Made by a program: the position numbers and the translations under genes. A stretch of DNA of 64,000 nt from Acidobacteriota bacterium (GTDB lineage: Bacteria > Acidobacteriota > Terriglobia > Terriglobales > Acidobacteriaceae). Position 1 is the stretch's first letter. Each line of letters starts with the position of its first letter. The stretch is taken from NCBI GenBank assembly GCA_013289795.1, contig JABCZH010000004.1, positions 124,001-188,000 of the forward strand, in the 5' to 3' direction. The notes under the pieces were generated by a model, which did not search any database, had not been told where the DNA came from, and worked only from the letters and a program-made list of their open reading frames with translations. Shown in pieces: positions 18,389 through 47,650 of this stretch.

Positions 18389-18488
18389 GAATTGAGGCGT
18401 CCCCGGGGCTTTGCCGCTTGTGCCATACATACAAAAGGAGGATCATAGATACACTTCATCTTGCGACTTAATGTCTCTTGGAGGAATC

Positions 18489-20448: not shown

Positions 20449-20913
20449 TCACGCCATCAGGTACCAGGCATCGCGATACTTTTCGTATCGACCTGGCTCG
20501 GCGGTTCCGCGCGGATGGAGGTGCACACTCCGGCGTGGCACAAATGCTCGCACTGGAATTACGAACCACTCGTCTTCGGGAACGATGTGAGCCACCAGGA
20601 AATCGATCTCTTCAACCGTATAGGGGACTTGCTTTTCACCCCGCCTTCTGTGCGCATGGATCATGTATCCTCCCCAACCGACACTGTTGGATGACTTGAC
20701 TTGCACCTTCCAGAAATTGGGTTCGGAGTGGACGATGAAGTCATAGCGGTTGCTTTCTCCGTAGGGCTTGGAGACGCCGAAGCCGAGACTCTCGGCTTTG
20801 TGGACGAAGGCCAATTCGGAGAGCTCGCCTCGTTTCTTGCAATCGACGGTGGCGCGTAACGAGCTTTGTTTTCTTTCAAACTTTTTCTGTAGAGATTTAT
20901 GGGTTGTGCTCAT
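20449..20913 (-). CDS. Small PD-(D/E)XK endonuclease-like protein
   Basis: A 154-residue protein resembling the PD-(D/E)XK family related to group I intron endonucleases. Visible core: RGELSELAF (Glu30, Glu33), KPYGESNRYDFIV (Asp58), then KVQVKSS (Gln71, Lys73), a complete E-D-QxK set in the usual spacing. A basic N-terminal helix precedes it. ATG at 20913 is used. The frame stays open upstream to a TTG at 20979, but no better start is seen. Unusually, a terminator-like hairpin and T6 tract end directly at the ATG. DNA cleavage is inferred from the motif; target and role, whether defence, mobile element or repair, are unknown. Confidence 0.72.
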   Translation of the reverse strand: MSTTHKSLQKKFERKQSSLRATVDCKKRGELSELAFVHKAESLGFGVSKPYGESNRYDFIVHSEPNFWKVQVKSSNSVGWGGYMIHAHRRRGEKQVPYTVEEIDFLVAHIVPEDEWFVIPVRAFVPRRSVHLHPRGTAEPGRYEKYRDAWYLMA

Positions 20914-20937
20914 AAAAAACGCCGGCTTGCGCCGGCG
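20914..20937 (-). terminator. Intrinsic terminator-like hairpin abutting the nuclease start codon
   Basis: On the minus strand CGCCGGC-GCAA-GCCGGCG is followed by TTTTTT, and the next base is the A of the nuclease ATG. The ribosome-binding-like GAGGAAGG lies just upstream of the hairpin. This is either an attenuator, the end of an upstream transcript, or a structured spacer. Confidence 0.6.
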
Positions 20938-20980
20938 GATGGTCCTTCCTCTAGATTGTCGGTGGTTGATTTCGAGCAAG

Positions 20981-29997: not shown

Positions 29998-32397
29998 ATG
30001 CCGAATCCACAATCTACGTTCGCGGTCGATGTGGTCGAGTTTGCCGCCACTCTGCTGGCACAGCAGGAGGCCGCCCCCCGTGCGCAGGTAATCGCAGACA
30101 AGGTTGCCGAGTTGCTGGCGGACACCGCGGTCGTGGTCTATGTGATTGCGGACCAGGAGAGTCCCGAATGGACAGCGAAGGCTACCGCAGGGGAGATCAC
30201 GGTTACAGATGCGGTGGAGTTTGAGACTGGAACGCTGGGCGCGTTAGCGGCAAAGCGGGAACTGCTGGTGTTTGAGGGGAGCGACCTGCCCCGCGAAGAG
30301 TACGCCCATCTCGACATTCGTCGGCAATTCGTCGCTCTGGCCTGCGTCCCGCTGCAGGTGAACGAGACGCTGGTGGGCGCCATCGAGCTGTTCCATTACG
30401 AAAGTTCCTTCCCAAAAGCCATGTTGGCAGCACTGAACGAGGTCGCCGAACTGGCTGCGCCCGCGCTCGCGTCCGCGCTCTTCTACGAGAGCGAGCGCAA
30501 CACCAACCTGCACTCCATCAGCCGCGTCACCCAGATGTACGACCTGGAAAAGGTCTTCAACTCAACGCTAGAGATGGACGAATTGCTGGGCACGATTGCC
30601 GGAAAGTTCCAGGAAGTGATGAACGTGCAGGGCGTCAATTTGTGGATGGTGAACGACGATGCTTTGGAACTAGTTGCGTGTGCCGGAGTCGATCCCACGG
30701 TTGAGGTTGGCATGGTGCAGAAGCCGGGCGAGGGCATCGCGGGAGATCTCTCCGACAGCGGCGAACCGGTGGTGATCGATGATCCCGAAGACGAGCGCCT
30801 CCAGAAGCGAAATCAAGGTGTCCAGGATGGGGCGGTGTTCTCCCTTGTGGCGGCTGCGCTGATGGAGCACGAGACGCTGGTGGGCGTAGTTGAAGCAGTG
30901 AACCGGATGGATGGACTTCCATTCGACGAAGATGACGAATTCCTGCTGGCCAACATCTGCGAAACCGCCAGCAATGCGCTGCACAATGCCAGCTTGTTGC
31001 AGGCTGAGCGCAAAGTGGAGATCCTTGAAGCCCTGGTTAAGGTGAGCGGTGAGATTACTTCCACTCTCGATCTGGACCGGGTTCTGGATGCGGTGGTGAA
31101 CGGGCCCAGCAGCGTAATCCCATATGAACGGGCGGCGATCGCGTTGGACCAGCGGGGCAAGTTGCAACTGAAAGCGATCGCGGGAGTGAGCAAGATCAAT
31201 CCCCAGGACCCGAACACAGCGCGTCTGCAAGAGTTGCTGGAGTGGGCGTCGTCGTCCAAGCAATCCATGTTCGTGATGCAGCACGGGAACGATGTGGAGG
31301 ACGAGCGTCCGGAGACGCGTGCGAAGTTCGAGAAATACTTTGCCGATAGCGGTATGCGTGCGTTTCATGCGCTGCCGCTGGCGGATGACGATGGCACGTT
31401 GGGCATCCTGTCATTCGAGAGCAGCGATCCGGACTTTCTCAGTACTGCACATCTGGAAATGATCAAGGTGCTGGCCGGGCAGGCAACGGTGGCGCTGCGC
31501 AATGCGTCGCTTTATCGCGAGGTGCCGTTCATCGACGTGCTCGGGCCGATTCTGGCGAAGAAACGCAAATTTCTGGCCATGGAGAAGGGGCGGCGGACGG
31601 TCGTGGTGGCTGGCGCGGCTCTCGCCCTGTTGTTCCTCGCAGCCTTTCCCTTGCCGCTGCGGGTGGATGGGCCCGCCGTGGTGGCTCCGGAACATAGTGC
31701 GCGGGTGCAGCCTGAAGTCGCCGGCGTGGTGCAGGCAGTGAATGTGCGGGAAGGCGACGCCGTGAAACAAGGCACGGTTCTGGCCCGTCTGGCGGATTGG
31801 CAATATCGTGCTGAACTTGCTGCCGCGCAGGCCAAGTACGAAACCGCAGTTTCACGAACGAACCGGGCACTCGCCGGCAACGACGGTACCGAGGCCGGAA
31901 TCGAACGGGTGCAAGCCGACTACTGGGCGTCTGAAGTGGCTCGCGCCCGAGAACGATTGCAAAAGACGCTGTTGCGCTCGCCCATCGATGGTCTGATTGC
32001 CACACCCCACATCGAGGACTCGGTAGGACAGGATTTGAAACCCGGCGATACTTTTGCGGAAGTCGTCGATACCTCGCGGGCAAGTGTGGACGTTGCCATC
32101 GATGAACATGATGTGTCGCTGCTCCGGCCCGGCGAAGAGGCATCGGTCAAACTCGATGGGTTTCCCACGTACACGTTTCGCGGCGAGTTGACGGTGGTGA
32201 GCCCCAGGGGCCAAGCGCAGGGCGATGACCGCGTGTTTTTTGCACGAGTCAGCGTACCCAATAGCGAAGGGCTGATCCGCACGGGAATGCAAGGCCGCAG
32301 CAAGATCTTCACGGCGTGGAGACCTGCGGGAGAGGTCTTCTTCCGGCGGCTGGGCATGTGGCTGTGGTCGAAGATTTGGTCGTGGTTTGGATGGTGA
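29998..32397 (+). CDS. GAF-domain protein fused to an HlyD-type membrane-fusion module
   Basis: About 799 residues. The N-terminal two thirds hold three GAF-like sensor regions (about residues 20-160, 185-335 and 350-520), the second with VGVVEAVNR and the third with LGILSFES. A single membrane helix (VVVAGAALALLFLAAFPLPL) lies near 545-565. It is followed by an HlyD-type barrel-sandwich: EVAGVVQAVNVREGDAVKQG, a short coiled coil, then LLRSPIDGLI and a beta-barrel domain. The expected topology is GAF domains in the cytoplasm and HlyD in the periplasm, unlike ordinary adaptors, which lack cytoplasmic sensors. It heads a three-gene operon with another adaptor and an M50/HlyD protein. Ligands of the GAF domains are unknown. 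Confidence 0.88.
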   Translation: MPNPQSTFAVDVVEFAATLLAQQEAAPRAQVIADKVAELLADTAVVVYVIADQESPEWTAKATAGEITVTDAVEFETGTLGALAAKRELLVFEGSDLPREEYAHLDIRRQFVALACVPLQVNETLVGAIELFHYESSFPKAMLAALNEVAELAAPALASALFYESERNTNLHSISRVTQMYDLEKVFNSTLEMDELLGTIAGKFQEVMNVQGVNLWMVNDDALELVACAGVDPTVEVGMVQKPGEGIAGDLSDSGEPVVIDDPEDERLQKRNQGVQDGAVFSLVAAALMEHETLVGVVEAVNRMDGLPFDEDDEFLLANICETASNALHNASLLQAERKVEILEALVKVSGEITSTLDLDRVLDAVVNGPSSVIPYERAAIALDQRGKLQLKAIAGVSKINPQDPNTARLQELLEWASSSKQSMFVMQHGNDVEDERPETRAKFEKYFADSGMRAFHALPLADDDGTLGILSFESSDPDFLSTAHLEMIKVLAGQATVALRNASLYREVPFIDVLGPILAKKRKFLAMEKGRRTVVVAGAALALLFLAAFPLPLRVDGPAVVAPEHSARVQPEVAGVVQAVNVREGDAVKQGTVLARLADWQYRAELAAAQAKYETAVSRTNRALAGNDGTEAGIERVQADYWASEVARARERLQKTLLRSPIDGLIATPHIEDSVGQDLKPGDTFAEVVDTSRASVDVAIDEHDVSLLRPGEEASVKLDGFPTYTFRGELTVVSPRGQAQGDDRVFFARVSVPNSEGLIRTGMQGRSKIFTAWRPAGEVFFRRLGMWLWSKIWSWFGW

Positions 32398-32411: not shown

Positions 32412-33299
32412 ATGAAGCGATATATCGTGATCGGGCTGACGTTTCTGCTGCTGGGTTTCAGTGGATGCAGCGGTTCGAAGGAAGTCGTCGCGGCCGCCGC
32501 CCCGGCGCAACCGGCGGACCAGCCGGCCAGTGTACAGAAGGAGAGCGTTTTCGTCGCCTCGGGCCCGGTCGTGGTGGAGAACCAGGTGGATGTCAGCGCC
32601 TTGCGAGAAGGGCCGGTGGTAACCATTCTGGCCCAGCCCGGTACGCAAGTACATCAAGGACAACTTCTGGCGAAACTCGATGACCGCCAGATTTCCGCTG
32701 ACGTGGAGGGCGCGGCCGCCCGGGTTCGGTCAATCGAGGCGAATCTGAAGAATTGGCAAGCCGAGACCAATGTTCTTAAATCTGACCGGGCGCGCGCTGA
32801 GAAATTATATGAGGCGCAGGTGATCCCGAAAGAAGAGCTGGAACATGTGCAATATAAAGAAGAGGCGGACGAATACGAAGTGCAGCGTGAAGCCGAAAGC
32901 CTGAACAATGCCAAGGCGACCCAGAAATCACTCGAACTGGAGCTTGACAAGACCAACATTGTCGCCCCGTTCGACGGAATCGTGGCGCGCCGCTATGTGC
33001 GAGTCGGCCAGAAAGTCTCGCCCGGCGACCGGCTCTTCTGGGTCACCGCCATGGCGCCACTGCAGGTGAAATTCACCTTGCCGGAACGGTTACTCGGAGA
33101 TGTCAAGCGCGGGCAAGTCGTTTCCGTATCTTCCACGGATGTCTCTCCCGCTGCCCAACACGACGCCAAGGTGATCGATGTCAGCCCGGTGGTGGATCCA
33201 TCGAGCGGCACGATTGAAGTTCTGGCCCAGATTGAGGGGCCTGCCCCTGATTTGCTGCCCGGGATGCTGGCCTCGATCCGCATCAACCTGCCGCAATGA
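32412..33299 (+). CDS. Lipoprotein membrane-fusion (RND-type) adaptor
   Basis: A 295-residue periplasmic adaptor anchored by a lipobox (LLLGFSGC, Cys19). After the lipoyl half-motif (VVTILAQPGTQVHQGQLLAK) there is a coiled-coil hairpin (about 90-160), the second lipoyl half (IVAPFDGIVARRYVRVGQKV) and a beta-barrel domain. GAGGTG lies 5 bases before ATG 32412. It follows the GAF-HlyD gene by 14 bases and overlaps the M50 gene by four (ATGA), so translation is probably coupled. No RND pump or TolC gene is adjacent, which suggests that the partner is the M50/HlyD protein. Confidence 0.9.
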   Translation: MKRYIVIGLTFLLLGFSGCSGSKEVVAAAAPAQPADQPASVQKESVFVASGPVVVENQVDVSALREGPVVTILAQPGTQVHQGQLLAKLDDRQISADVEGAAARVRSIEANLKNWQAETNVLKSDRARAEKLYEAQVIPKEELEHVQYKEEADEYEVQREAESLNNAKATQKSLELELDKTNIVAPFDGIVARRYVRVGQKVSPGDRLFWVTAMAPLQVKFTLPERLLGDVKRGQVVSVSSTDVSPAAQHDAKVIDVSPVVDPSSGTIEVLAQIEGPAPDLLPGMLASIRINLPQ

Positions 33300-35449
33300 A
33301 CATTGTTCAAGCACTGGACGCCGCGATTCCTGAAATGCCCGAACGGGTGATCCGGCGGGACAAGCCCAAGGTTGACCCCCGCGTCATCACCAAAGAGCAC
33401 ATCGAGGACGGCCGCCCGATTATCGTTACCAAGCTCCCGGGAACTGAGGTGGTTCTTCGCTTCATTCCTGAACAATGGAAGTTGATTCAGCTCTTTGACG
33501 GAAACAGAACCTATCAGGAGATCGCCGCACTCTCGGCTGAGGCCACGGGGTCGGCTTTCTCAGAAGACGACGTGCGAGAGATTACCAGCTTCCTGTACAA
33601 CAACACGGAGTTTATCTGCAAGACACCGCTGGAAAAAAACATCATCCTGCAGGAACAGGTCCGCGGCCAACGCCGCAAGAAGCTGAAGAAATCCCGGATA
33701 ACGGATTTCACCGACATCACCGTAAAGGAATGGCCGAACGCCGACCAATACATCACCTGGCTGTACCCCAAACTGAAGTTTATCTACACTCCTGCCTTCG
33801 TTCTATTCAGTTTTTTCCTGTTTGCCGTCATGCTCTGGATGTGGGCTGACAAATTCATGGAAATCTGGAATGACAGCTTCGAGTTTTATAACTTCACCGC
33901 CAAGTCCGGGAAGGATCTGCTCGAGTTCTGGTTTCTGTTCGGAACCATGGCTTGTATTCACGAGAGCGCGCACGGGCTCACCTGCAAGCACTTCGGCGGC
34001 AACGTCGAAAAGATGGGGTTCACTCTCATGTATTTTGCCCCCAGCTTTTTCTGCGACGTTTCTCAAGTATGGATTTACGGGGGCCCGGTGGAGAGGATGG
34101 CTACAGCCATTGCCGGCATTTGGATTGATCTGATCATTTGCGTCTTCGCCACGGTGGTGTGGTGGGGAACGGCCACCGGCATGACCATCCACGACCTGGC
34201 CTACAAAGTGATGATGGTCACCGGCATCGGCGTCTCCTTGCTTAACCTCAACCCGCTGATAAAGCTGGACGGATATTTGATCTTTACCGAACTCATTCAT
34301 GAGCCCGACCTCAAGGAAAAGAGTACAGCCTACCTTTCCGGCCTCATGCGGAAAAAGATCTTCGGCCTGCCGGTGGAGGTGGACTTTGTCCCGCGGCGTC
34401 GGCGTGTTTTCTATGTCGTCTATGCCATCCTTTCCGGCATGTACGGATATCTGCTGTTGTCGTTCCTGATGGTGCTGTCGTTTCATATTTTGCAGGCTTA
34501 TACGCCGGAGTGGGCCTTCCTGCCTGCTCTTGGCATCGGGTATTGGGTCTTCAAGTCCAAGATCAAAATGGTGGTGAAGTTTATGAAAATTGTTTACCTG
34601 GACAAGAAAGAACGGCTGCGAGCCTGGCTGACCGTGCCACGCATCGTAGCGCTCTCTGCTGCGTTATTGGTGATCATCTTTCTGCCGCTATGGCCGGAGT
34701 TTGTCGAAGGACGCTTTGTGTTGGAACCGGCTCACAAAGCGTGGATCCATGCCGAGGTCGCGGGACGGGTGACGCGAGTGCTTGCCCGGGAAGGGCAAGC
34801 TGTGGCCGCCGGCCAACCTTTGGTCGAACTCCGAAATCTGCAACTGGAGTCGGCGGCGGCAGGCGCGAATGCTGACTTGCACGCCGCTTCCGATCAAGCC
34901 AACCTTGCGCTTTTGCACTATGACGATTTCGGTCCGGCAGAGTATAAACGCCAGGAGATGGCAGAGCGGAACCGGGCAATGGTCGACCAGGAAGCTCTTC
35001 TCCGAGTTACCAGCCCCATCTCCGGTGTGGTGGTGACTCCGCGGCTGGATGACCTGATGGGAGCATATTTGAAATCTGGCGCGGAGATCGCGGAGGTGGC
35101 CGATCCCTCTACCCTGACTGCCCGCATCTACATCCCCGAATTCGGGATGACGGACGTTCATCCGGGTTCCACAGTGAGGCTCCAGGCGGAATCTCATGCC
35201 ATGCCTCTGACTGCGACCTTGCTGTCAGTGGCGGCTGCATCCAGTTCGATTGAGCCGGGGCTCATCCCCCAGGACCAACTGAAAGGCATTACTGCGCCTC
35301 GTTTCTATGTGGGATCGGCATCGCTGACGAACCCCGGCGCACTACGGGAGGGTATGACCGGCGCCGCCAAGATCCTGGTCACTTACCGCAGCATTGCAGG
35401 GTTCAGCTGGATATTTGGCCGCGATCTGATCGAGCGCAAGCTGTGGTAA
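33296..35449 (+). CDS. PqqD-like / M50 metalloprotease / HlyD fusion protein
   Basis: A 717-residue membrane protein. Residues about 45-108 (VVLRFIPEQWKLIQLFDGNR and TYQEIAAL) resemble a PqqD-like RiPP-recognition fold. Membrane helices start near 165. HESAHGLTCKHFGG at 222 gives the HExxH zinc site of peptidase M50, and NLNPLIKLDGY (Asp325) supplies the third ligand. About residues 470-700 form an HlyD barrel-sandwich (AEVAGRVTRVLAREGQAV, then SPISGVVVTP). Proteins of this layout occur with peptide-export operons. It overlaps the adaptor gene by four bases. It is the likely core of a processing-and-export complex; its convergent neighbour encodes a possible substrate. The PqqD call is by eye and less certain than M50 and HlyD. 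Confidence 0.85.
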   Translation: MNIVQALDAAIPEMPERVIRRDKPKVDPRVITKEHIEDGRPIIVTKLPGTEVVLRFIPEQWKLIQLFDGNRTYQEIAALSAEATGSAFSEDDVREITSFLYNNTEFICKTPLEKNIILQEQVRGQRRKKLKKSRITDFTDITVKEWPNADQYITWLYPKLKFIYTPAFVLFSFFLFAVMLWMWADKFMEIWNDSFEFYNFTAKSGKDLLEFWFLFGTMACIHESAHGLTCKHFGGNVEKMGFTLMYFAPSFFCDVSQVWIYGGPVERMATAIAGIWIDLIICVFATVVWWGTATGMTIHDLAYKVMMVTGIGVSLLNLNPLIKLDGYLIFTELIHEPDLKEKSTAYLSGLMRKKIFGLPVEVDFVPRRRRVFYVVYAILSGMYGYLLLSFLMVLSFHILQAYTPEWAFLPALGIGYWVFKSKIKMVVKFMKIVYLDKKERLRAWLTVPRIVALSAALLVIIFLPLWPEFVEGRFVLEPAHKAWIHAEVAGRVTRVLAREGQAVAAGQPLVELRNLQLESAAAGANADLHAASDQANLALLHYDDFGPAEYKRQEMAERNRAMVDQEALLRVTSPISGVVVTPRLDDLMGAYLKSGAEIAEVADPSTLTARIYIPEFGMTDVHPGSTVRLQAESHAMPLTATLLSVAAASSSIEPGLIPQDQLKGITAPRFYVGSASLTNPGALREGMTGAAKILVTYRSIAGFSWIFGRDLIERKLW

Positions 35450-35483
35450 AGGCGTTTTGAGAAGTTGCGATCGGGTGCAATAA

Positions 35484-35512
35484 AAAGGACCGCCTTTTTG
35501 AGGCGGTCCTTT
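35484..35512. terminator. Bidirectional rho-independent terminator
   Basis: Perfect 12-bp arms AAAGGACCGCCT and AGGCGGTCCTTT flank a TTTTG loop. T-rich sequence follows on the plus strand and TTTTTA follows on the minus strand. It separates the convergent export operon and the repeat-peptide gene. Confidence 0.85.
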
Positions 35513-35541
35513 CTTGTGTGACTTGTGTTTCGCGATGCGAA

Positions 35542-35886
35542 TCAGAGCGCCTTTACCCTCGCCAGCGGCGTGACGCGAGCGACTGGGGTGACGCGAGCGA
35601 CCGGGGTGACCCGGGCTACGGGCGTAACGCGGGCTACGGGGGTTACCCGAGCGAGCGGCGTGACGCGGGCATGAGGCGTGACGCGAGCGTGGGGTGTGAC
35701 CCGAGCGTGCGGAGTTACTCTGGCAAGGGGAGTGACTCGCGCGTGCGGAGTGACTCGCGCGTGCGGGGCAACTCTGACGCTGGCGACCTTGGTCTGGCCG
35801 GGATTGCTGGTCATTTCAGGCTTCGCTACCAGGGCTTTCTTGGTGGCCGTGCGATTGCTGATCAAAGATTTCTTCTGGATAGCCAT
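35542..35886 (-). CDS. Small basic protein with tandem ARVTP hexapeptide repeats (possible secreted peptide precursor)
   Basis: A 114-residue product. ATG at 35886 is supported by GCGAGGAATTCAA directly upstream. Residues 1-36 form a leader-like basic region (MAIQKKSLISNRTATKKALV and on). From about residue 37 the protein is a six-residue tandem array: eleven exact ARVTP units joined by H, L or V, with a degenerate copy at each end and ARVKAL closing. Arg every sixth residue and several His make it strongly cationic. No classical Sec signal or membrane segment is seen. It has its own sigma-54 promoter candidate and a shared bidirectional terminator with the M50/HlyD export operon. I know no family for it. 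A role as exported peptide substrate is inferred from context; a DNA- or RNA-binding basic protein is an alternative. Confidence 0.78.
   Translation of the reverse strand: MAIQKKSLISNRTATKKALVAKPEMTSNPGQTKVASVRVAPHARVTPHARVTPLARVTPHARVTPHARVTPHARVTPLARVTPVARVTPVARVTPVARVTPVARVTPLARVKAL
35548..35775 (-). repeat. 18-bp coding tandem repeat (ARVTPx array)
   Basis: Twelve to thirteen 18-bp units encode the hexapeptide array. The units differ mostly at silent positions. Arg uses CGA, AGA, CGG and CGC, Thr and Pro use all four codons, and Ala uses three, while ARVTP is unchanged in eleven units. Confidence 0.9.
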
Positions 35887-35940: not shown

Positions 35941-35958
35941 AGCACCTCTGCTGCCAAA
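35941..35958 (-). promoter_or_regulatory. Candidate sigma-54 (-24/-12) promoter of the repeat-peptide gene
   Basis: The minus strand reads TTTGGCAGCAGAGGTGCT. This matches the TGGCA of the -24 element and the TGCT of the -12 element, with the diagnostic GG and GC exactly 12 bases apart. Transcription would start near 35930, leaving a leader of about 44 bases with a good Shine-Dalgarno. Confidence 0.6.
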
Positions 35959-36104: not shown

Positions 36105-37505
36105 TCATAGATTTCGCTTGCGGCAGAGATATTTCATGCGCTGGGGGTCGATGCCAAGCAAGGCCGCCGCGGCCGACCTCTTGCCGCCGGTCCGGTTCAA
36201 GGCCGCTTGCAGGTAGGCGAGCTCGATGCGGTCCATCTCGGAGTCGAAATCGACTCCCCCTTCGGGAATAAGGATCGCCTCCTGACTGGCATTGCTGGCC
36301 ACCAGCATTTGCTGTGGCAGGTTCTGGACGTTGATGATGGCGCTGTCATTCATCAGCACCAGCCGCTGGACAACGTTTTCCAGTTCCCGCACGTTCCCCG
36401 GCCATTGGTAGTCTTCCATGACCCCGAGAACTTCGGCTTCCACTTGCTTCAAGGGCTTGCCGTTGGCTTTGCAATAGATGCGCAGGAAGTGGCCGACCAG
36501 CAAGGGAACATCTCCCTGCCGTTCGCGCAAAGCAGGCAGTGCGATGGGTACGACGTTGATGCGGTAATAAAGGTCTTCGCGGAAACGGCCAGCCTGGACC
36601 TGGGCTTCCAGGTCTTCATTGGTCGCTGCAATGAGGCGGAAGTCAATTTTCTTGGCGGTCTTGCCCCCGATGCGAGTCACCGCCCGGTCCTCTAAAACGC
36701 GCAGCAGCTTGGACTGAAGGGCGAGGCCTAGAGTGGCGATCTCATCCAAGAACAGGGTGCCGGTATGCGCCAGCTCGATGTGCCCCTGGCGGGCCTCTTT
36801 GGCATCGGTGAACGCGCCTCTCTCATGGCCGAACAGCTCGGTTTCGATGAGATTCTCAGGAAGGGCGGCGCAGTTAATGCTGATGAACGGCTTCTCGGCG
36901 CGCGGTCCCATGGTGACGATGGCCCGTGCCACCAGTTCCTTGCCGGTGCCGCTCTCGCCGCGTAGCAATACCGTGCTGTTGCTGTCGGCGACCCGGGTAA
37001 CGGCGTCATAAACACGGCGCATGGACTCGCTGGCGCCAATCAACTCGCAGAATGACTCCCGCTCAGCGTCTTTCTCCTGGCGCTGCCGGTATTCGACTTC
37101 TACCGCTCGCTTCTCCAGAGCACGACCGAGGACGACGCGGACTTCCTCAAAGTTGATGGGAGCGACAAAATACTGATCGACGGTGGCGTCGATGGCCTTG
37201 TGTCGCAGCTTGCGGCTGTCGGAGCGGGTAAGGGCAACCAGCACCAGATCGGGCCCGAAGGAACGCAACTCGGCGAGTGCGGTGATTCCCTGTTCGCTGT
37301 TGGCCCCGACGGTATCGATGTCCAGGAGTATGGCATCGGGAGACCGCTTCTTCACCCATGCCAGCAGTTCATCCCAGGTGCGAAGCATGTGGAGGTCATA
37401 ATCGGGCGCGAGGTGGGTTTCGGCCTCAGGGCCCACCAGTTCGTCACCGGTGACGATGACGATGCAGTACGGGGAAGCCAGATCGCGGGCAGTTGCGGTG
37501 CGCAT
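36105..37505 (-). CDS. Sigma-54-dependent transcriptional activator with receiver-like N-terminus
   Basis: A 466-residue NtrC-type bacterial enhancer-binding protein. Residues 12-130 resemble a receiver domain with Asp62 in AILLDID, but the conserved Lys of the KP motif is replaced (VAPINFEE), so phosphorylation may not control it normally. The AAA+ domain spans about 154-380: Walker A GESGTGKE (183-190), the sigma-54 contact loop GAFTDA (230-235), and Walker B LFLDE (251-255). A Fis-type helix-turn-helix closes the protein (RSAAAALLGIDPQRMKYLCR). TTGGAGGGCT gives a strong ribosome site. No histidine kinase is adjacent. Its own gene and the peptide gene each have the shared 15-bp dyad, suggesting it activates the peptide gene and represses itself. 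Confidence 0.92.
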   Translation of the reverse strand: MRTATARDLASPYCIVIVTGDELVGPEAETHLAPDYDLHMLRTWDELLAWVKKRSPDAILLDIDTVGANSEQGITALAELRSFGPDLVLVALTRSDSRKLRHKAIDATVDQYFVAPINFEEVRVVLGRALEKRAVEVEYRQRQEKDAERESFCELIGASESMRRVYDAVTRVADSNSTVLLRGESGTGKELVARAIVTMGPRAEKPFISINCAALPENLIETELFGHERGAFTDAKEARQGHIELAHTGTLFLDEIATLGLALQSKLLRVLEDRAVTRIGGKTAKKIDFRLIAATNEDLEAQVQAGRFREDLYYRINVVPIALPALRERQGDVPLLVGHFLRIYCKANGKPLKQVEAEVLGVMEDYQWPGNVRELENVVQRLVLMNDSAIINVQNLPQQMLVASNASQEAILIPEGGVDFDSEMDRIELAYLQAALNRTGGKRSAAAALLGIDPQRMKYLCRKRNL

Positions 37506-37743: not shown

Positions 37744-38082
37744 TTGGACATCAATGTCCGTAAGCGTTCGGAAGTACAGTTGATCCAGCTCCGCGGACCG
37801 TTAAGGATGGGGCCCGCGGTGGACGGATTGCGTCAAGCCATGGAGGAACTGATTGGCCAGGGCGACTATCGCATGGCCATCAATCTGGCCGAAGTAAATA
37901 TGATTGATTCCAGCGGCATCGGTCTGCTGGTGCGGTTTCTGGCCTCCACCAAGAAACAAGGCGGGAACATCAAACTGGTGCAACCTTCGAAGTTTGCCGT
38001 GCAAACCCTGAAGCTGGTGGGAGTCCTCAATCTGTTCGAAATCTTCGAGGATGACGACGCAGCGGTGGGGTCCTTTTCTTAG
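37744..38082 (+). CDS. STAS-domain anti-sigma factor antagonist
   Basis: A 112-residue single STAS domain of the SpoIIAA/RsbV type. The TTG start at 37744 is preferred because AAGGAG lies 8 bases upstream and no ATG fits. The key segment is VNMIDSSGIGLLVRFL, with Ser in the DSSG motif as the predicted phosphorylation site (about residue 58). In partner switching this protein binds the anti-sigma kinase. Here the next gene, 37 bases downstream, encodes such a kinase, supporting a module. No alternative sigma factor or PP2C phosphatase is adjacent, so the target is unknown. Confidence 0.9.
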   Translation: MDINVRKRSEVQLIQLRGPLRMGPAVDGLRQAMEELIGQGDYRMAINLAEVNMIDSSGIGLLVRFLASTKKQGGNIKLVQPSKFAVQTLKLVGVLNLFEIFEDDDAAVGSFS

Positions 38083-38119: not shown

Positions 38120-38557
38120 ATGGCCGATGAATTTGGCGCAGGCGGGAGTAGCGGCTTCACCGAACTACTCAATCTGAGCCTGCCCGCGAGTTCGGAATCG
38201 ATTGCGACCATTACCGGCGCCATCTCCGAGATCCTGGAGCGGCTGGACCTTCCCGAACAGAAGAGGTTTGAGATCGACCTGGCGGTGCAGGAAGCCCTGG
38301 CCAATGCCGTGGTACACGGATGCGATGGAGACCCCTCGAAGACCATTACGTGCAGGTTGAACGGCGATCCCAAGGGCCGGCTGGTGATTTCGGTGACCGA
38401 TCCCGGTCCCGGCTTCCGGCCCGAGAGCGTACCCGATCCGAAGCGTGCTGAGGGCCTGTATGGCGACCACGGCCGTGGAGTTTATCTGATCCGCCAACTC
38501 ATGGACGAAGTTCAGTTTGAGCATGGCGGCGCAGAAATCAAGATGTGGAAGTATTGA
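38120..38557 (+). CDS. RsbW-like anti-sigma ATPase/kinase
   Basis: A 145-residue GHKL ATPase of the HATPase_c_2 family, as in RsbW and SpoIIAB. Visible motifs are the N box QEALANAVVHG (about residues 57-67), the G1 box VTDPGPGFRP (about 94-103) and the G2 region YGDHGRGVYLIRQLMDEVQF. GGAGATGAGCC stands before ATG 38120. It follows the STAS gene in the same orientation, so the pair likely forms a partner-switching unit in which the ATPase phosphorylates the STAS Ser. The third component could be a sigma factor or a different effector encoded elsewhere. Confidence 0.9.
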   Translation: MADEFGAGGSSGFTELLNLSLPASSESIATITGAISEILERLDLPEQKRFEIDLAVQEALANAVVHGCDGDPSKTITCRLNGDPKGRLVISVTDPGPGFRPESVPDPKRAEGLYGDHGRGVYLIRQLMDEVQFEHGGAEIKMWKY

Positions 38558-41524: not shown

Positions 41525-41844
41525 ATGGACTCTCCCAATGTCATGGGCCAGGCTTCTGCCGGGCGAAGAATATCTGCGATCGCGATTGACATTTCAGCTT
41601 AATGATAGCTGAGTCAACGAAATCCTGGGGTCTGTGTTGCCTGGAAGGACATGTCCGCATTCCTCATCACCCCAGGTGTACCAGTCCCAGATTGGGCGTG
41701 TTTCCGGCCCTCGGAAATTGATCGTCCTCCAGTTTCAACTCTGTCCTTCCGCCATCTGTCAGTGACACTAGCCATAAGTCAGACTGACCTTTCACCGTTT
41801 TGACATCGCACCTCAAGGAGATCACTGCAAGCGTTCTGCGCACT
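41525..41844. other. Intergenic region without visible features
   Basis: This is a divergent spacer between the PPK2 gene and the lipoprotein gene. I see no gene, convincing promoter or structured element. Confidence 0.4.
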
Positions 41845-43794
41845 ATGAGCACTCACATCAAGGCGAGAATCGGTTCCGCGGGTTGGGAAGGAGTCGTACT
41901 CTTGCTGTCACTCACCATGCTGGCCGGATGTCAGGGTCTGAGTGCTGGGGGGAAGTCGGCGACTCCTCCGCCGCAGAACAATAACTCGGCCGGCAACCTG
42001 GGCATGAGTACCCTGAGTCTCGACTTCGGCAGCGTATCGGTAGCCGGCAGCAAGACCCTGAGCCTTACAGCGACCAATAATGGCACCACCGAGATCACGG
42101 TTTCGAGCGTTGCGCTTTCGGCGACGCAGTTTACCCTGAGTCAGCCAACGATTCCGGTAAAGATCGCTGCTGGGCAGAGTTCAAGCATGAGTGTGGTGTT
42201 CGCTCCTACGGCTACGGGAAGCATCACTGGGTCGATGTCGATCACGAGTGACGCGTCGAACGCCTCGATAACAGTGGCGCTACAAGGTGCGGGCTTGGGC
42301 GCCGGGCAGGTCACCGCCAGTCCAACCAGCCTCAGCTTTGGAAGCCTGCCGCTTGGCAAGAATCAGACTCTGCCGGTGACGCTGACCAATGTGGGCAATT
42401 CCAGCGCAACTATTTCTCAGGCGACGGCGACCGGGGCAGGATTCGCTGTGAGCGGGTTGTCGTTGCCGTTGACGCTGGCGGTTGGCCAGAGCACGAATTT
42501 CAATGTGGTGTTTGCGCCCCAAGCCAGCGGGGCGGTCACTGGCAACGTGGCGATTGTCAGTGATGCGATCAATTCTCCGTTCAACCTGCCGCTTACAGGC
42601 ACCGGACTGCCGCCGGGTTCGCTCTCGGCGAATCCGCCAAGCATCCGCTTTTCCAACGTGCAGGTGGGAAACAACCAGAATATTCCGGAGACGCTGACTA
42701 ACAGCAGCGGTGCCAGCGTAACCATCACTCAGGCGGTAGTCACGGGTGCGGGTTTCAGCGTCAGCGGTCTCAGCCTGCCGGTGACTCTGGCGGCCGGGCA
42801 AAGCATGGGATTCAGCGTGGTATTCACTCCGCAGTCAGCGGGTAGCGTCAGCGGCAACCTCGCGGTCGTGAGCAACGCGTCCAACTCCACGCTCAATATT
42901 CCGCTGGCGGGAACGGGGATCCAGCCCGGAACGTTGACCCCGACTTTGCCCAGCGTCAACTTTGGCAATGTGCAGGTGGGCCGCAACAAATCGGTATCGG
43001 AGACCGTCACCAACACCGGCGGCTCGGATGTGCACATCTCTCAAGCCACGGCCACGGGGAGCGGTTTCAGCGTTAGTGGGATCAATCCGCCGCTTACCCT
43101 CACGGCGGGACAGAGCATCACGTTCAACTTAGTGTTTACTCCGCCATCGGCAGGCAGTGACAACGGAAATCTTGCCATCACTTCCGACGCGTCTAATCCC
43201 ACATTGAATGTTCCGTTGACTGGCAACGGGACGCCGGCGGGACAGTTGGCGGTAAATCCGAGCACGTTGAGCTTCGGTAATGTAGTGGTGGGACAGAGCT
43301 CGCAGAAGACAGCACAATTGCTGGCTTCCGGCGCCACCGTGACGGTGTCTTCGGTGAATGTCAGCAATGGTGACTTTACCGTGAGCGGGCTAACGTTTCC
43401 CGTGACCATCCCAGCCGGACAGGGCGCGCAATTTACGGTGACGTTTACGCCGCAATCGGTGGGAGCAACGTCGGGAACAGCTTCGTTCACCAGCGATGCC
43501 GCTAATTCACCGACTGTGCTCAGCGTAAACGGAACCGGCACGCAGCCAGTGCAGCACAGTGTTCTGTTGAACTGGACGGCCAGCATATCGCCCAACATCG
43601 ACGGCTATAACATCTACCGGAGCGGTAAATCGGGAGGCCCGTACAGCAAGGTGAATACTTCCTTGAACAGCGGCACCAGTTACACTGACACCACAGTCGC
43701 GAATGGTTCGACGTACTACTATGTGACCACCGCAGTTGATTCCAATTCCCAAGAGAGCACGTACTCCAACCAAGCGCAGGCCGTAATTCCGTAA
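41845..43794 (+). CDS. Lipoprotein with choice-of-anchor D repeats and C-terminal fibronectin-III module
   Basis: A 649-residue exported lipoprotein (lipobox TMLAGC near residue 32). ATG 41845 is chosen; an upstream in-frame TTG at 41800 is possible. Five choice-of-anchor D (ASH-type) domains of about 105 residues follow, each with the core SLSFGSLPLGKNQTLPVTLTN-type strand and AAGQSxxFxVVFxP. The last 85 residues are a fibronectin-III module with GYNIYRSGKSGGPY and YYYVTTAVDSN, ending SNQAQAVIP. Paralogous modules occur in four neighbouring genes around an exosortase. Likely a surface-exposed structural or adhesive protein. Confidence 0.87.
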   Translation: MSTHIKARIGSAGWEGVVLLLSLTMLAGCQGLSAGGKSATPPPQNNNSAGNLGMSTLSLDFGSVSVAGSKTLSLTATNNGTTEITVSSVALSATQFTLSQPTIPVKIAAGQSSSMSVVFAPTATGSITGSMSITSDASNASITVALQGAGLGAGQVTASPTSLSFGSLPLGKNQTLPVTLTNVGNSSATISQATATGAGFAVSGLSLPLTLAVGQSTNFNVVFAPQASGAVTGNVAIVSDAINSPFNLPLTGTGLPPGSLSANPPSIRFSNVQVGNNQNIPETLTNSSGASVTITQAVVTGAGFSVSGLSLPVTLAAGQSMGFSVVFTPQSAGSVSGNLAVVSNASNSTLNIPLAGTGIQPGTLTPTLPSVNFGNVQVGRNKSVSETVTNTGGSDVHISQATATGSGFSVSGINPPLTLTAGQSITFNLVFTPPSAGSDNGNLAITSDASNPTLNVPLTGNGTPAGQLAVNPSTLSFGNVVVGQSSQKTAQLLASGATVTVSSVNVSNGDFTVSGLTFPVTIPAGQGAQFTVTFTPQSVGATSGTASFTSDAANSPTVLSVNGTGTQPVQHSVLLNWTASISPNIDGYNIYRSGKSGGPYSKVNTSLNSGTSYTDTTVANGSTYYYVTTAVDSNSQESTYSNQAQAVIP

Positions 43795-43998
43795 GTTCTG
43801 GTTATCACCACTCGCCTCGAGGCTTCCGCGTTGGAAAGCGTACGACGGTAGGCAGGAAACCGCCGCAACTGTCGACGTCCATTTGCCTCCCAGTACGAGT
43901 CCGATCTCCGAAAAGGGACTGGTGCTCGGGAACTAGCGCCGGGATGTACTAGAGAGACCTTCCCTCGCAGCGAGGGGAGCCAGCAAACTGATCATGCT

Positions 43999-45261
43999 AT
44001 GCCCCTCCCCCAATTGATTTCTCGTTCTGTCTTTTTTCGTGTCGTCATTTTGATGACCCTGCTCGGTATCAGCGTGCCGTGCGCATACGCGAGCCGTACG
44101 CAGTTGATTTGCAATCCGCGCAGTCTGGGATTCGGCAAGGTTGTGACCGGCCAGACCCTGACCCTGCCGGTCAGTGTGACCAACACTGGATCCTTTTCAG
44201 TCACGGTTTCCAGCCTGACCGTGACCAACGCCGCGTTTACAGTTAACGATTTCACGGTGCCGCAGACCCTGACCGCAGGTCAGAGCGTTCAGTTCAGCGT
44301 GAGCTTCTCTCCCGCGACGGTGGGGAATGTGAGCGGCACTGTGGAGTTCAGTACCAGCATCGGGACGCTCAACCTTCCAGCCAGCGGCCGAGGTGTAAAC
44401 AACTGGCCGTTGACGGCAAGTCCCGCCGGCTTGAACTTTGGCACTGTCGCGGTGGGTGGTTCATCAACCCTGCCATTGACCATCAATAACCCCGGTACAA
44501 CCAGCCAAACCGTGTCGATCGGCAAGGTATCAGGCACGGGGTTTTCGGTGACGGGGGTCACGCTGCCGCTGATTTTGGCGGCGGGTCAGAGTTTTACTTT
44601 CGGCGTCACGTTCGCTCCCTTGTCGGCCGGAGCCTTCAGCGGCAGTATCCTCGCGACCAGTCCTTCGACGCCGGCTCTGATCATTCCGCTTTCCGGTACC
44701 GGCGCCACAGCGGGCCAGTTGACGGTCACGCCGCCTACGATCAATTTCGGCAATGTGACGGTTGGGCAGAGTTCAAGTCAGGGCGGCCAACTGACTGCCA
44801 GCAATTCCAGCGTGAACGTTTCTTCCGCGATCATGAGTAATCCGATGTTTGCCCTCAGCGGGATTTCATTGCCAGTAACCATCGCTGTGGGCCAGTCGAT
44901 CAACTTTACGGTCACCTTCACTCCGACGAATGCTGGAACCATCTCGGGGACCTTGTCGTTTGTTAGCAACGCGGTCAACTCCCCGACAGTGCAATCGCTG
45001 ACCGGCTCGGCAAGTGTGATGCAGTACTCAGTGAATCTCAGGTGGAATCCCAGCACTTCGCAAGTCGTGGGCTACAACGTGTATCGCAGCACGCAGTCGG
45101 GCGGACCGTACGCCATGATCAACTCCGTATTGGACCAGAACACGGCCTACACCGATAGCACGGTAGCGGATGGGCAAACCTATTACTATGCCACTACTGC
45201 GGTGAACTCCGATGGCCAGGAGAGCGGCTACTCGAATCTGTCGCAGGCTGTAATTCCCTAG
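43999..45261 (+). CDS. Secreted choice-of-anchor D / fibronectin-III protein
   Basis: A 420-residue exported protein. The signal peptide spans the N-terminal 30 or so residues (VILMTLLGISVPCAYAS). Three choice-of-anchor D domains follow (FGKVVTGQTLTLPVSVTNTG type), then a C-terminal fibronectin-III module with GYNVYRSTQSGGPY and the ending SQAVIP. It is not a lipoprotein, unlike the paralogues at 41845 and 46952. ATG at 43999 is used; no strong ribosome site is seen. The 200-bp spacer before it contains nothing I can name. Confidence 0.83.
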   Translation: MPLPQLISRSVFFRVVILMTLLGISVPCAYASRTQLICNPRSLGFGKVVTGQTLTLPVSVTNTGSFSVTVSSLTVTNAAFTVNDFTVPQTLTAGQSVQFSVSFSPATVGNVSGTVEFSTSIGTLNLPASGRGVNNWPLTASPAGLNFGTVAVGGSSTLPLTINNPGTTSQTVSIGKVSGTGFSVTGVTLPLILAAGQSFTFGVTFAPLSAGAFSGSILATSPSTPALIIPLSGTGATAGQLTVTPPTINFGNVTVGQSSSQGGQLTASNSSVNVSSAIMSNPMFALSGISLPVTIAVGQSINFTVTFTPTNAGTISGTLSFVSNAVNSPTVQSLTGSASVMQYSVNLRWNPSTSQVVGYNVYRSTQSGGPYAMINSVLDQNTAYTDSTVADGQTYYYATTAVNSDGQESGYSNLSQAVIP

Positions 45262-45296
45262 GCCCGGGAACCACGAAGAGAGTCTGAACGAAAACA

Positions 45297-45821
45297 CTAC
45301 GGGAACGGAATCACCACTTTTACCACGTTGGAATGACGGCTCTGCTTCCCGGCCTGGTTGACGGCCGTGGTTGCGTAGTAATAGGTGTGTCCACCGCGCA
45401 CTTGATCGTCGACATACTCAGGGATGGGAACAGGATCGCGGTTGATCCTAGCGCATCGAGCACTCAAGCCGCTGCACCGAAATACGTTGTAACCAACGAA
45501 GTCATCGTTGGTCAGAGCATTCGCACTGGGCTGCCAGGACAACATAACCCGATGCGGCCTGGTGACGCGCCTTTGAAACCTTGAATTCGTTCCATCTGCT
45601 GGGTACGGCTGGTCTGCTTGCGACAGCAAAGGTGTGTCTGGATTCTTGCCGGCTCGCGGCCCCGCTTCGACTGATTCCTGCTTGAGGGTTCCGTCGCTGC
45701 TTTTCGTCACGTAGCTGGTGGGAGTAGAATCCGCTGGAACCTCGCCGTTAGTTCCCCAGAGCTGAAGGCGCATCCCACCAAGCACCACAAAAACCGCGAC
45801 GGCAACGGGGACTGCTCGCAT
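45297..45821 (-). CDS. Secreted fibronectin-III protein
   Basis: A 174-residue exported protein from ATG 45821, with AGAGG about 8 bases upstream; an in-frame TTG at 45854 is less likely. A hydrophobic leader (AVPVAVAVFVVLGGM) is followed by a low-complexity linker and a single fibronectin-III module: VMLSWQPSANAL, GYNVFRCSG, YYYATTAVNQAG and the ending VVKVVIPFP. Two extra Cys residues (RCSGLSARC) may form a disulfide. It is convergent with 43999 and belongs to the cluster of related modules around the exosortase. Confidence 0.72.
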   Translation of the reverse strand: MRAVPVAVAVFVVLGGMRLQLWGTNGEVPADSTPTSYVTKSSDGTLKQESVEAGPRAGKNPDTPLLSQADQPYPADGTNSRFQRRVTRPHRVMLSWQPSANALTNDDFVGYNVFRCSGLSARCARINRDPVPIPEYVDDQVRGGHTYYYATTAVNQAGKQSRHSNVVKVVIPFP

Positions 45822-46243
45822 ACTTCTGCCTCTTCGAATCGACGGTACTCTCAATCCAAGCGCCCGCTCATCCGCTGGCGATCGATCACGAGATCGATCC
45901 TCCCAAACCAGCGCGGAACGCTGGCCTCAAGTTGAATCACACCCTCGAACCTTGCTGCGGCTCACTGTGTTTTTTGGGACTGGCAATTCTACCCGGTCTG
46001 GCTGGCGTTTTGGGGTTTCGATCAAGATATTTCTCAGGTGCGGTTCACAAATGGTTCACACCGGTTACACCTCCCTCATGAGTGCAAAATATTGCATACT
46101 CCACGATCCCGATGGTAACCAGTTACTCTTCCCAAAGTAATCAAACGAAGCAGCTTAAGTGGCACCGACGGGCCATGCGCTGTGGCGGTGAAGATGCGAT
46201 AGTACATGTACGCCTGGACAGTACCAGGCCCACACCAACGATT
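45822..46243. other. Intergenic region with GATCGATC repeats
   Basis: Two GATCGATC palindromes at 45880-45887 and 45892-45899 are separated by ACGA and form a dyad. A possible VOC-domain remnant lies at 46051-46140 (separate entry). Otherwise nothing is recognised. Confidence 0.4.
46051..46140 (+). pseudogene. Possible remnant of a VOC/glyoxalase-family gene (C-terminus only)
   Basis: The short frame ends AKYCILHDPDGNQLLFPK and a stop. The DPDGN motif followed by a short hydrophobic end is typical of the C-terminus of VOC-superfamily proteins. Nothing upstream continues the homology, so it would be a decayed fragment of about 30 codons. A chance match is possible. Confidence 0.3.
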
Positions 46244-46738
46244 ATGAAGAAATTCAGCATTGGCGGGGCGTACAGGTTTGGCGCAATCACCCTCTTATTT
46301 CTTCTTGCGGGTACGTACGCGGCAGTGTCACAGGAAGTCTCCATGGCGCTGCTTCAACCGGCGCCCATCCAGCCTTCGCCTGCGGCCGTGGTCAGGACCG
46401 TACCGTCTAGCCCGGTACGCCTGGGCGGAGAAGCACACAAGTTCTGGGACGCGAAGAACACTGCTTTGTTCGCCACGGTTGCGGGGTTCAGCGCCGCCGA
46501 CTTCGCGGTCACTCGTGACAACCTCAGCCATGGCGGGCGGGAACTGAATCCGCTGACACGACCTTTCGCCGGCAGCACAGCCGCTCTGGCGGTGAATTTC
46601 GCGGGCGAAACCGCTGGCGTCGTCGGTCTCAGCTACTGGTTCCACAAGACCGGCCACCACAAACTGGAACGTCTCACTCCGATCGTTAACTTCGGGATGT
46701 CGGCCTTTGCTGTAAGCTACGGCCTCGCGCACCGCTAA
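46244..46738 (+). CDS. Exported or membrane protein of unknown function
   Basis: A 164-residue product from ATG 46244 with a signal-like N-terminus (FGAITLLFLLAGTYAAVSQ). A proline-rich linker precedes a conserved-looking C-terminal half: KFWDAKNTALFATVAG, GRELNPLTRPF and TPIVNFGMSAFAVSYGL. The pattern of hydrophobic stretches suggests two or three short membrane segments. NPLTRPF-type motifs recur in acidobacterial hypothetical proteins. I do not assign a function. It lies within the fibronectin-III/exosortase neighbourhood. Confidence 0.65.
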   Translation: MKKFSIGGAYRFGAITLLFLLAGTYAAVSQEVSMALLQPAPIQPSPAAVVRTVPSSPVRLGGEAHKFWDAKNTALFATVAGFSAADFAVTRDNLSHGGRELNPLTRPFAGSTAALAVNFAGETAGVVGLSYWFHKTGHHKLERLTPIVNFGMSAFAVSYGLAHR

Positions 46739-46951
46739 GTGCCCTGACAGTCCCCGTTTCGAACTGCACCCGCCTAGCCCAGACCACGCTCACGATTCCG
46801 ATTGCTGTGAATTGGGCAACTGGATTATGATCGCGTCGCTCCGGGTCATTCTAGACGGCCCAAGTTACCAAAGTGCCATACCGCGCGGGATGCAGGACAT
46901 GGATTCCCGGACTCTGGACTGTCCCGAAGTGAACCTCGGATAATCGAGGTC

Positions 46952-47650
46952 ATGGGAAAGAAGTGGCCATTCTGGCCTGGCCATTGGTGGGGCCTGCTGG
47001 CAGTACTCGCCTGCATGGTGCTCACCGGATGCGCGGGCGTGTCCTCGGGCGGGTCGTCGAACTCCAATCCGCCCCCGAAAAATGACCCTCCCAGCGTGGG
47101 CCAGCTCTCGGTTGCCCCCACCACCATCAACTTCGGGACGGTGGCTTTGGGCAGCAGCTCCAACTTGACCGGCACGCTGACGGCTGCCACTTCCGACGTC
47201 AATGTCACCTCAGCCGCCTGGAATGGGCAGGGTTATAACGTCAGCGGGATCACGTTTCCGGTAAAGGTGGCCGCAGGAACGAGCGTAAACTACACCGTCA
47301 CCTTCACGCCGGAGGCGGCGGGCAACAGCCCGGGCGCGATTTCCTTCGTCAATGACGGATCCACCTCGCCGGTGGCCGAAACTCTCGACGGTAGCGGCGG
47401 CCAGGCAGGGGTGCATACGGTTGGCCTCTCCTGGCATGCCAGCACGTCTTCCGTGATCGGATACAACGTCTATCGTGGAACTAAGTCCGGCGGCCCTTAC
47501 CAGCGGCTGACCACGTCGCCACAGCCAGGCACCAGCTATACCGACAGCACGGTGTTGACTGGCACGACTTATTATTACGTCTCTACGGCGGTAGATTCGA
47601 ACCTTGCCGAGAGCGTTTACTCGAATCAGGCGCAGGCCGTAATTCCGTAG
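46952..47650 (+). CDS. Lipoprotein with choice-of-anchor D and fibronectin-III domains
   Basis: A 232-residue lipoprotein; lipobox VLTGC (Cys near 26). One choice-of-anchor D domain (INFGTVALGSSSNLTGTLTA, about 50-145) is followed by a fibronectin-III module with GYNVYRGTKSGGPY and YYYVSTAVDSN, ending SNQAQAVIP. This ending is identical to that of the 41845 gene, so the two are recent paralogues. It is convergent with the exosortase gene, their stop codons only 9 bases apart. Surface localisation is inferred. Confidence 0.82.
   Translation: MGKKWPFWPGHWWGLLAVLACMVLTGCAGVSSGGSSNSNPPPKNDPPSVGQLSVAPTTINFGTVALGSSSNLTGTLTAATSDVNVTSAAWNGQGYNVSGITFPVKVAAGTSVNYTVTFTPEAAGNSPGAISFVNDGSTSPVAETLDGSGGQAGVHTVGLSWHASTSSVIGYNVYRGTKSGGPYQRLTTSPQPGTSYTDSTVLTGTTYYYVSTAVDSNLAESVYSNQAQAVIP

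Follow-up and report, generated by a model that had tools for sequence, protein, structure and literature searches.

The M50 protease EpeP is thought both to cleave and to export the epipeptide, according to the account given in PMC10885120, and deletion of epeP is described there as not fully abolishing production. Daptide leaders, as presented in PMC10036551, are removed by a fusion of an RRE to an M50 protease, and the daptide protease MpaP is characterized as an RRE-dependent intramembrane peptidase. Here we describe an acidobacterial locus at which a protein of similar design is convergent to a small gene that encodes a repeat array. The locus lies within a 64,000-nucleotide stretch of genomic DNA, called the window throughout. 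Drawing on sequence comparison, structural models and analogy, we consider that the small gene probably encodes the precursor of a repeat peptide, under sigma-54 control, guided by its leader, processed by an M50 protease and exported through HlyD-type domains. No description of the precursor family or of the system was recognised among the papers listed in searches of the open-licence literature.

The probable precursor gene and its leader family

The precursor gene and its flanking signals comprise the following features.

35542-35886, reverse strand: repeat-peptide gene, 114 residues, ATG start; an orthologous ORF is present at 47 of the 48 loci that could be tested
35821-35886, reverse strand: conserved leader MAIQKKSLISNRTATKKALVAK, residues 1-22, defined by alignment of precursors
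35779-35820, reverse strand: spacer, residues 23-36, variable between species; NPGxTKVAS is common to the window and locus L029
35761-35778, reverse strand: degenerate first unit, VRVAPH
35563-35760, reverse strand: array of 11 ARVTP[HLV] units
35542-35562, reverse strand: C-terminal tail ARVKAL and stop codon
35893-35897, reverse strand: Shine-Dalgarno-like GAGGA, seen in the sequence
35941-35957, reverse strand: sigma-54-type promoter TTGGCAGCAGAGGTGCT, of the form GG-N10-GC, which begins 71 nt before the ATG and holds the same position in orthologues
35482-35514, between the convergent genes: terminator-like hairpin with a 14-pair stem in the model, -23.2 kcal/mol, z = -6.2; not listed by a simple terminator scan

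The array occupies 198 of the 345 bases of the gene (35760 down to 35563), with H (four times), L (three) or V (four) after each ARVTP, and the period-6 score of the precursor is 56, a value that never exceeded 7 in 10,000 shuffled versions of the protein. An earlier note on this DNA, made from the sequence alone, had relied on the frame being translated; the conserved leader, synteny, sigma-54-type promoter, ribosome-binding site and terminator hairpin together give it the look of a real gene.

The leader follows the pattern KKSLIS...KKA..A, in which K5, K6, L8, I9, K17, A18 and A21 are invariant across the first ten sequences of the alignment. Its pooled pN/pS over 15 orthologue pairs is 0.19, a value raised by the L029 pair, which is misaligned by one residue; on this sequence evidence the leader is under purifying selection. 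A conserved leader followed by a variable core is the arrangement expected of a RiPP precursor, and no precursor scored above a curated family cut-off when eight were compared with Pfam and 11 with NCBIfam.

A search with the M50 protein across 60 relatives and the genome itself produced matches in 13 of 61 genomes, and in nine of the 12 other matching genomes a small ORF with the same leader lies beside the M50 gene, mostly with different repeats. That screen found no leader ORF at the two most distant M50 matches (L014 and L015), while at L006 the contig ends too early. A scan of 84,980 species genomes, from which the best 80 of 240 relatives were used, shares some genomes with the first search (L005 and L037, for example, come from one genome); the first 67 loci among those listed (L029-L095) are all acidobacterial by title. 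M50 identity is at least 36% at 57 loci, nine of which lie on contigs that stop within 300 bases of the gene; at 47 of the 48 testable loci that remain, a leader ORF is convergent to the M50 gene (46 by pattern and L076 by eye). L082 is the sole exception; L083 was set aside from this tally because its M50 gene is broken by N near the contig end, and L040 and L068 were counted despite interrupted M50 frames. When 399 genomes of the class were searched with a profile of the leader, 25 matches at E<1e-3 were found in 24 genomes, and for the 24 matches with loci the flanks contain the sigma-54 regulator in every case and the M50 gene in 22, L111 and L120 being those without it. Both searches pooled yield 61 distinct precursor sequences by pattern. 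When 72,556 plasmid records were searched with the M50 protein, 72 matched, all below 60% identity. Locus L111 (521-1725) carries three tandem leader-bearing precursors, each with its own sigma-54 site and each a short cationic peptide without a strong array.

Other leaders occur in the same position. Eleven more distant Acidobacteriota loci were inspected by eye (L084-L089, L092, L094, L095, L098 and L108), and nine of them contain a small ORF in convergent orientation that bears either of two leaders, the first resembling LTxxQxxxIxxATG (L087, L088, L089, L092, L095 and L098) and the second AKKxxxxxKxGKxI (L085, L086 and L094); no such ORF was seen at L084 or L108. Seven of these nine precursors contain arrays, with units such as GDQEALRA, VAAPR and LQRGT. 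A profile of the LTxxQ-type leader matched seven of 297 genomes of the phylum, where the sigma-54 regulator adjoins all seven matches and the M50 gene is present in the short flanks of four; two of these (L145 and L146) proved to be the L095 and L088 peptides, and the search added arrays of ALASKS, AAKSLR, AAKGLK and LSGKS.

A probable sigma-54 switch and the RRE-M50-HlyD protein

The neighbours of the precursor gene are as follows.

30001-32397, forward strand: three GAF stretches fused to a HlyD domain, start codon chosen by us
32412-33299, forward strand: HlyD-type periplasmic adaptor
33296-35449, forward strand: fusion of RRE (PqqD-like), M50 protease and HlyD, 717 residues, convergent to the precursor gene
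33365-33610, forward strand: RRE/PqqD-like domain of the fusion, about residues 24-105, from AlphaFold model, Foldseek and PDB profile search
33959-33973, forward strand: M50 HExxH motif (H222, E223, H226)
36105-37505, reverse strand: sigma-54-dependent response regulator (receiver, AAA+ and Fis), present at 29 of 30 loci
37744-38082, forward strand: STAS-domain protein; 13 of 30 loci have a relative close to the cluster
38120-38557, forward strand: RsbW-like HATPase, adjoining the STAS gene

Neighbours were surveyed at 30 loci (the window, nine long stretches and 20 oriented loci) using ORFs of at least 100 residues. The only families found at more than five loci were HlyD-bearing genes (30, three genes being counted as one on account of the domain they share), the sigma-54 regulator (29) and the STAS gene (13); no tailoring enzyme, ABC transporter or inner-membrane pump, receptor or second protease was conserved among neighbours at more than five of the 30.

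RpoN is encoded in the genome. Promoters were scored with a sigma-54 consensus and weights reportedly due to Barrios et al., and p values were obtained against Markov-chain shuffles fitted to each upstream region. A site at p<=0.05 precedes 57 of the 61 precursors, with 47 at the 0.01 floor and ten showing the full consensus, and the best site lies 60-93 nt from the start codon in 60 of them and at 108 nt in the other; in the four that fail the p cut (L008, L039, L063 and L126), too, the best site falls 72-81 nt before the ATG. A site is likewise present ahead of L076 and of all nine other-leader precursors (for the nine, p<=0.02 and a distance of 45-143 nt). As a control, the region upstream of the GAF-HlyD gene, whose starts are approximate, has a site in one of 19 cases (L050, p=0.03). 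The promoter of the window scores lower than most (21.2 out of 23.9, p=0.02), and its pattern, TTTGGCAGCAGAGGTGCT, has five exact matches in the 4.67-Mb genome, as has the reversed control, so the evidence for this promoter is its position and conservation rather than its rarity. No KKSL leader ORF lies within 220 bases after four other sigma-54-like sites of the genome. With such a promoter and a genomic RpoN, the precursor has the sequence attributes of a gene of the sigma-54 regulon, and the neighbouring response regulator would be what turns it on, as suggested by promoter and adjacency across the loci compared.

The usual gene order is not universal, since at L024 (11277-11630) a small gene that appears ArsC/glutaredoxin-like by inspection stands between the precursor and a flipped sigma-54 regulator. 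The regulator of the window matches RtcR models in PADLOC, which returned no defence-system match for the peptide, the M50 protein or the GAF-HlyD protein, and membership of a defence system was rejected on that result. Elsewhere in the window, an AIPR-family protein (18411-20198; Pfam E 7.8e-27) has a PD-(D/E)XK endonuclease-like neighbour on the opposite strand (20449-20979) and is possibly a phage-defence gene. The window also contains a tandem repeat of period 126 in 3.7 copies (15744-16213) and, at 41800-47650, several large secreted-looking proteins, the first of which has five ASH-like Ig repeats.

In the 717-residue protein, the HExxH and NP...DG motifs of the M50 part are invariant in 35 aligned sequences, and HlyD domains follow downstream of it. 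In the AlphaFold2 model of the N-terminal 125 residues, helices come after a three-stranded sheet (pLDDT 78.6). Foldseek finds the closest PDB structure to be that of TbiB1, a lasso-peptide leader-binding protein, in complex with its leader (E 0.005, probability 1.00). This match fills ranks 1 and 3-6, an unrelated methyltransferase comes second, and no hit reaches E 0.001. The top three matches in a PDB profile search are PqqD proteins (E 0.05-0.3). PqqD is also the Pfam family most often matched by members, in 12 of 42 at E<=1 with a best value of 3.8e-6, and the domain of the window itself has no Pfam match. From the predicted fold and these weak profile matches, the N-terminal domain probably has the leader-binding RRE fold, which would place an RRE in the immediate vicinity of the precursor.

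By analogy with the daptide and epipeptide proteases, the RRE domain would bind the conserved leader, as its conservation and the predicted fold suggest, and the M50 part, in which the catalytic motif is intact, would remove the leader at or near the membrane. The fused HlyD domain and the two other HlyD-type adaptors might then pass the remainder outward, as has been proposed for EpeP. Relatives of the RRE-M50-HlyD protein also occur in Oligoflexia, Bacteriovoracaceae, Verrucomicrobia, Planctomycetota, Bacteroidetes and Zixibacteriota (L096, L097 and L099-L107), where the flanks examined contain no strong match to the sigma-54 regulator.

Sameness within arrays and change between species

The earlier note had reported eleven identical ARVTP units written with diverse synonymous codons, and this observation stands, together with its coordinates and strand. 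Threonine and proline each use all four of their codons, arginine uses four, and alanine and valine three each; the eleven 15-mers are all different, with a mean nucleotide identity of 0.76. Over the whole periodic region of the window (12.3 units), the codon identity of like residues is 0.30, where codon usage in the M50 gene predicts 0.31 (P = 0.67), and synonymous change has therefore reached saturation. Divergence between units is 0.118 for pN and 0.73 for pS, nearly all amino-acid variation being confined to the sixth position, and amino-acid pair identity is 0.86, as against 0.10 under neutral decay to the observed pS (200 simulations, star-like with uniform mutation; range 0.04-0.25). 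The proposal that purifying selection acts on the peptide, and that the DNA is not its target, is borne out by these values.

The same holds across the family. In the 40 arrays kept for this analysis, those with a low periodicity score being excluded, median pS is 0.61 and median pN 0.06. By a cut-off of our own, 18 of the 40 are saturated, and in several of these pN is near zero (0.00 in L035 and 0.02 in L011, for example); other arrays are young, with codon identities of 0.91 in L118 and 0.86 in L061 and L128. We read this series, from sequence comparison, as arrays that may be born by duplication and then age synonymously under strong selection on the peptide. The young arrays might come from concerted evolution of the DNA, by recent expansion or gene conversion and without any selection on the protein, but as a general account this is highly improbable, because the codons of the window array are random and residues remain uniform in the saturated arrays. 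Codon identity at its expected value refutes DNA homogenisation for the window itself and leaves it tenable solely as an account of how the youngest arrays arose. We also considered, and rejected, selection for adjacent units to differ in their codons: over the 18 saturated arrays the lag-1 deviation is only -0.015, with 10 of them below expectation.

The hexapeptide itself, which the earlier note had taken to be under selection, is not the conserved object, since the closest readable orthologue has a five-residue unit. This orthologue, L029, has an M50 protein 77% identical to that of the window (dS about 1.06) and the unit A[SA]TR[MVLI] of period 5, in place of ARVTPx of period 6; L030, which is cut by a contig end, carries AATRV and AANRV, which resemble the L029 units. 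Among the 61 precursors, 52 pass the periodicity cut (L052, L058, L063, L071, L075, L090 and the three of L111 were dropped), and their arrays comprise 49 units that are distinct up to rotation, fall into 43 groups when 25% mismatch is tolerated and range in period from 3 to 13. Examples are KLG, KPAI, VRPT, LAPNK, ASKVA, LSGGKG, SKGGAL, GHSPKVV, AADAGSM and KAPAKLAA. Random amino-acid differences inside the units of orthologues, the pattern that the earlier note had set against its own reading, were not seen; most orthologues carry another, nearly uniform unit, and departures from the column consensus number 163 across the arrays, of which 80 are conservative. To judge from these sequences, the conserved property is sameness within an array.

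Individual units nevertheless vary in how long they last. AADAGSM is found in L010, L079 and L081 over M50 dS values of 0.48-1.5, and like units are retained between L054 and L060 (dS 0.51), L051 and L068 (0.83) and L087 and L089 (0.63), whereas the unit has changed between L055 and L058 at an M50 dS of 0.90, and L007 has ten KLG units where L063, at 1.10, has no array. Nine of the 61 precursors are without a strong array, as are L088 and L095 with their other leaders, so repetition is not obligatory for handling by the system.

Composition is more constrained than sequence. Lysine or arginine occurs in 45 of the 52 units, usually at one exact spacing, and is lacking in seven; V, I, L, M or F occurs in 49, and aliphatic-type residues and K/R are combined in 42. 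Forty-four arrays are net basic, four acidic and four near neutral; tryptophan and tyrosine are absent from all 52, and cysteine, phenylalanine and glutamate almost so. An intracellular, histone-tail-like binder of nucleic acid, with coincidental neighbours, would account for basic arrays such as KAPAKLAA and KPAI, which seem to resemble basic tails; we regard this as unlikely, given the leader and M50 gene together at 47 of 48 loci and the existence of acidic and neutral arrays.

Under the explanation we prefer, that of an exported repeat peptide, the array would itself be the product, as suggested by uniform protein on randomised DNA and by a unit that differs in most species. Two forms of that product are about equally likely, and we advance each tentatively. 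The array may be cut into identical oligopeptides, many copies of one short peptide that would serve as a species-specific signal or antagonist. Units that are near-uniform within arrays and differ between species favour this possibility, the frequency and usual exact spacing of K/R would suit a trypsin-like cutter, and fungal KEX2-processed precursors of such design are described in PMC6339444 and PMC5850478; against it, no second protease or receptor is conserved in the cluster, seven units lack K/R, some members have no strong array, and units follow one another without a spacer. Alternatively, the whole array may be exported as a periodic and mostly cationic polymer that acts through regular charge spacing, for example by binding anionic surface polysaccharide or building a matrix. 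This would fit the net basic charge of most arrays, their restricted composition, the mostly fixed spacing of K/R and the disorder predicted for the array: AlphaFold2, run on the precursor with no alignment, predicts no secondary structure (pLDDT 55, pTM 0.10), which is weak evidence alone. A bulk polymer should tolerate single changes, yet pN is near zero in several saturated arrays such as L035 and L011, and the few acidic and near-neutral arrays also fit it poorly. Neither form readily accounts for the very low pN of aged arrays.

Comparison with described systems

Period 6 with valine at regular places recalls the left-handed beta-helix of LpxA, LpxD and GlmU, which the earlier note had offered as a possible structure, and weak NCBIfam matches to these proteins were found (E 0.002-0.02). 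Their scores, however, are 14-17 against cut-offs of 207-666, the hexapeptide period is not conserved in relatives (periods 3 to 13 over 52 arrays) and no structure is predicted; the beta-helix is thus unsupported, and we reject it for the family. TigB, a repeat-bearing RiPP precursor (NCBIfam NF047709), is weakly matched by the L010 array (E 4e-6), but at 26.8 bits this falls below the cut-off of 70, and only this Ala/Ser/Gly-rich acidic array matches, the other precursors scanned in NCBIfam (4 + 6) giving no match to the model. Fungal KEX2-processed precursors of the alpha-factor type share near-identical repeats in a secreted precursor, as outlined in PMC6339444, whereas the present system is bacterial, has units without spacers and employs leader-protease machinery, so the likeness is one of analogy only.

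The nearest NCBIfam models of the M50 part are the daptide and epipeptide proteases. The daptide protease MpaP/DapP is likewise an RRE-M50 fusion and is the best match (E 4.8e-40, residues 25-419), but the daptide_HExxH score of 137.9 is below the cut-off of 300, the oxidative decarboxylase, aminotransferase and methyltransferase of daptide clusters are not among neighbours at more than five of 30 loci, and the daptide leader motif as given in PMC10036551, ELExMEAP, is absent from the 61 precursors. The epipeptide system (EpeX/YydF with EpeP/YydH) resembles ours in having a leader-bearing small peptide that adjoins an M50 membrane protease, as portrayed in PMC10885120. It differs in that its radical-SAM epimerase is not among neighbours at more than five of 30 loci here, the NCBIfam YydH/LiaK score is 39.4 against a cut-off of 225, and in our locus the precursor is a repeat array and both HlyD and RRE are fused to the protease.

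These comparisons raise the question of whether an M50-HlyD protein exports peptides without an ABC pump. One possible answer, which we put forward with some reserve, is that the family represents a class of untailored exported peptides in which selection preserves internal sameness and residue spacing rather than sequence, and that the RRE-M50-HlyD protein is an ABC-independent exporter, guided by the leader and blind to its cargo. If so, leader, switch and machinery would be conserved, whereas most species would have a cargo of their own, kept uniform within each array. The arrays would then constitute a natural library of secreted repeat sequences and a test case for the meaning of selection for sameness, and the system might provide a carrier for the export of arbitrary repeats. 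The machinery is akin to that of known systems, and what appears novel is the precursor, an array whose unit changes from species to species and whose copies stay uniform while their synonymous positions are saturated.
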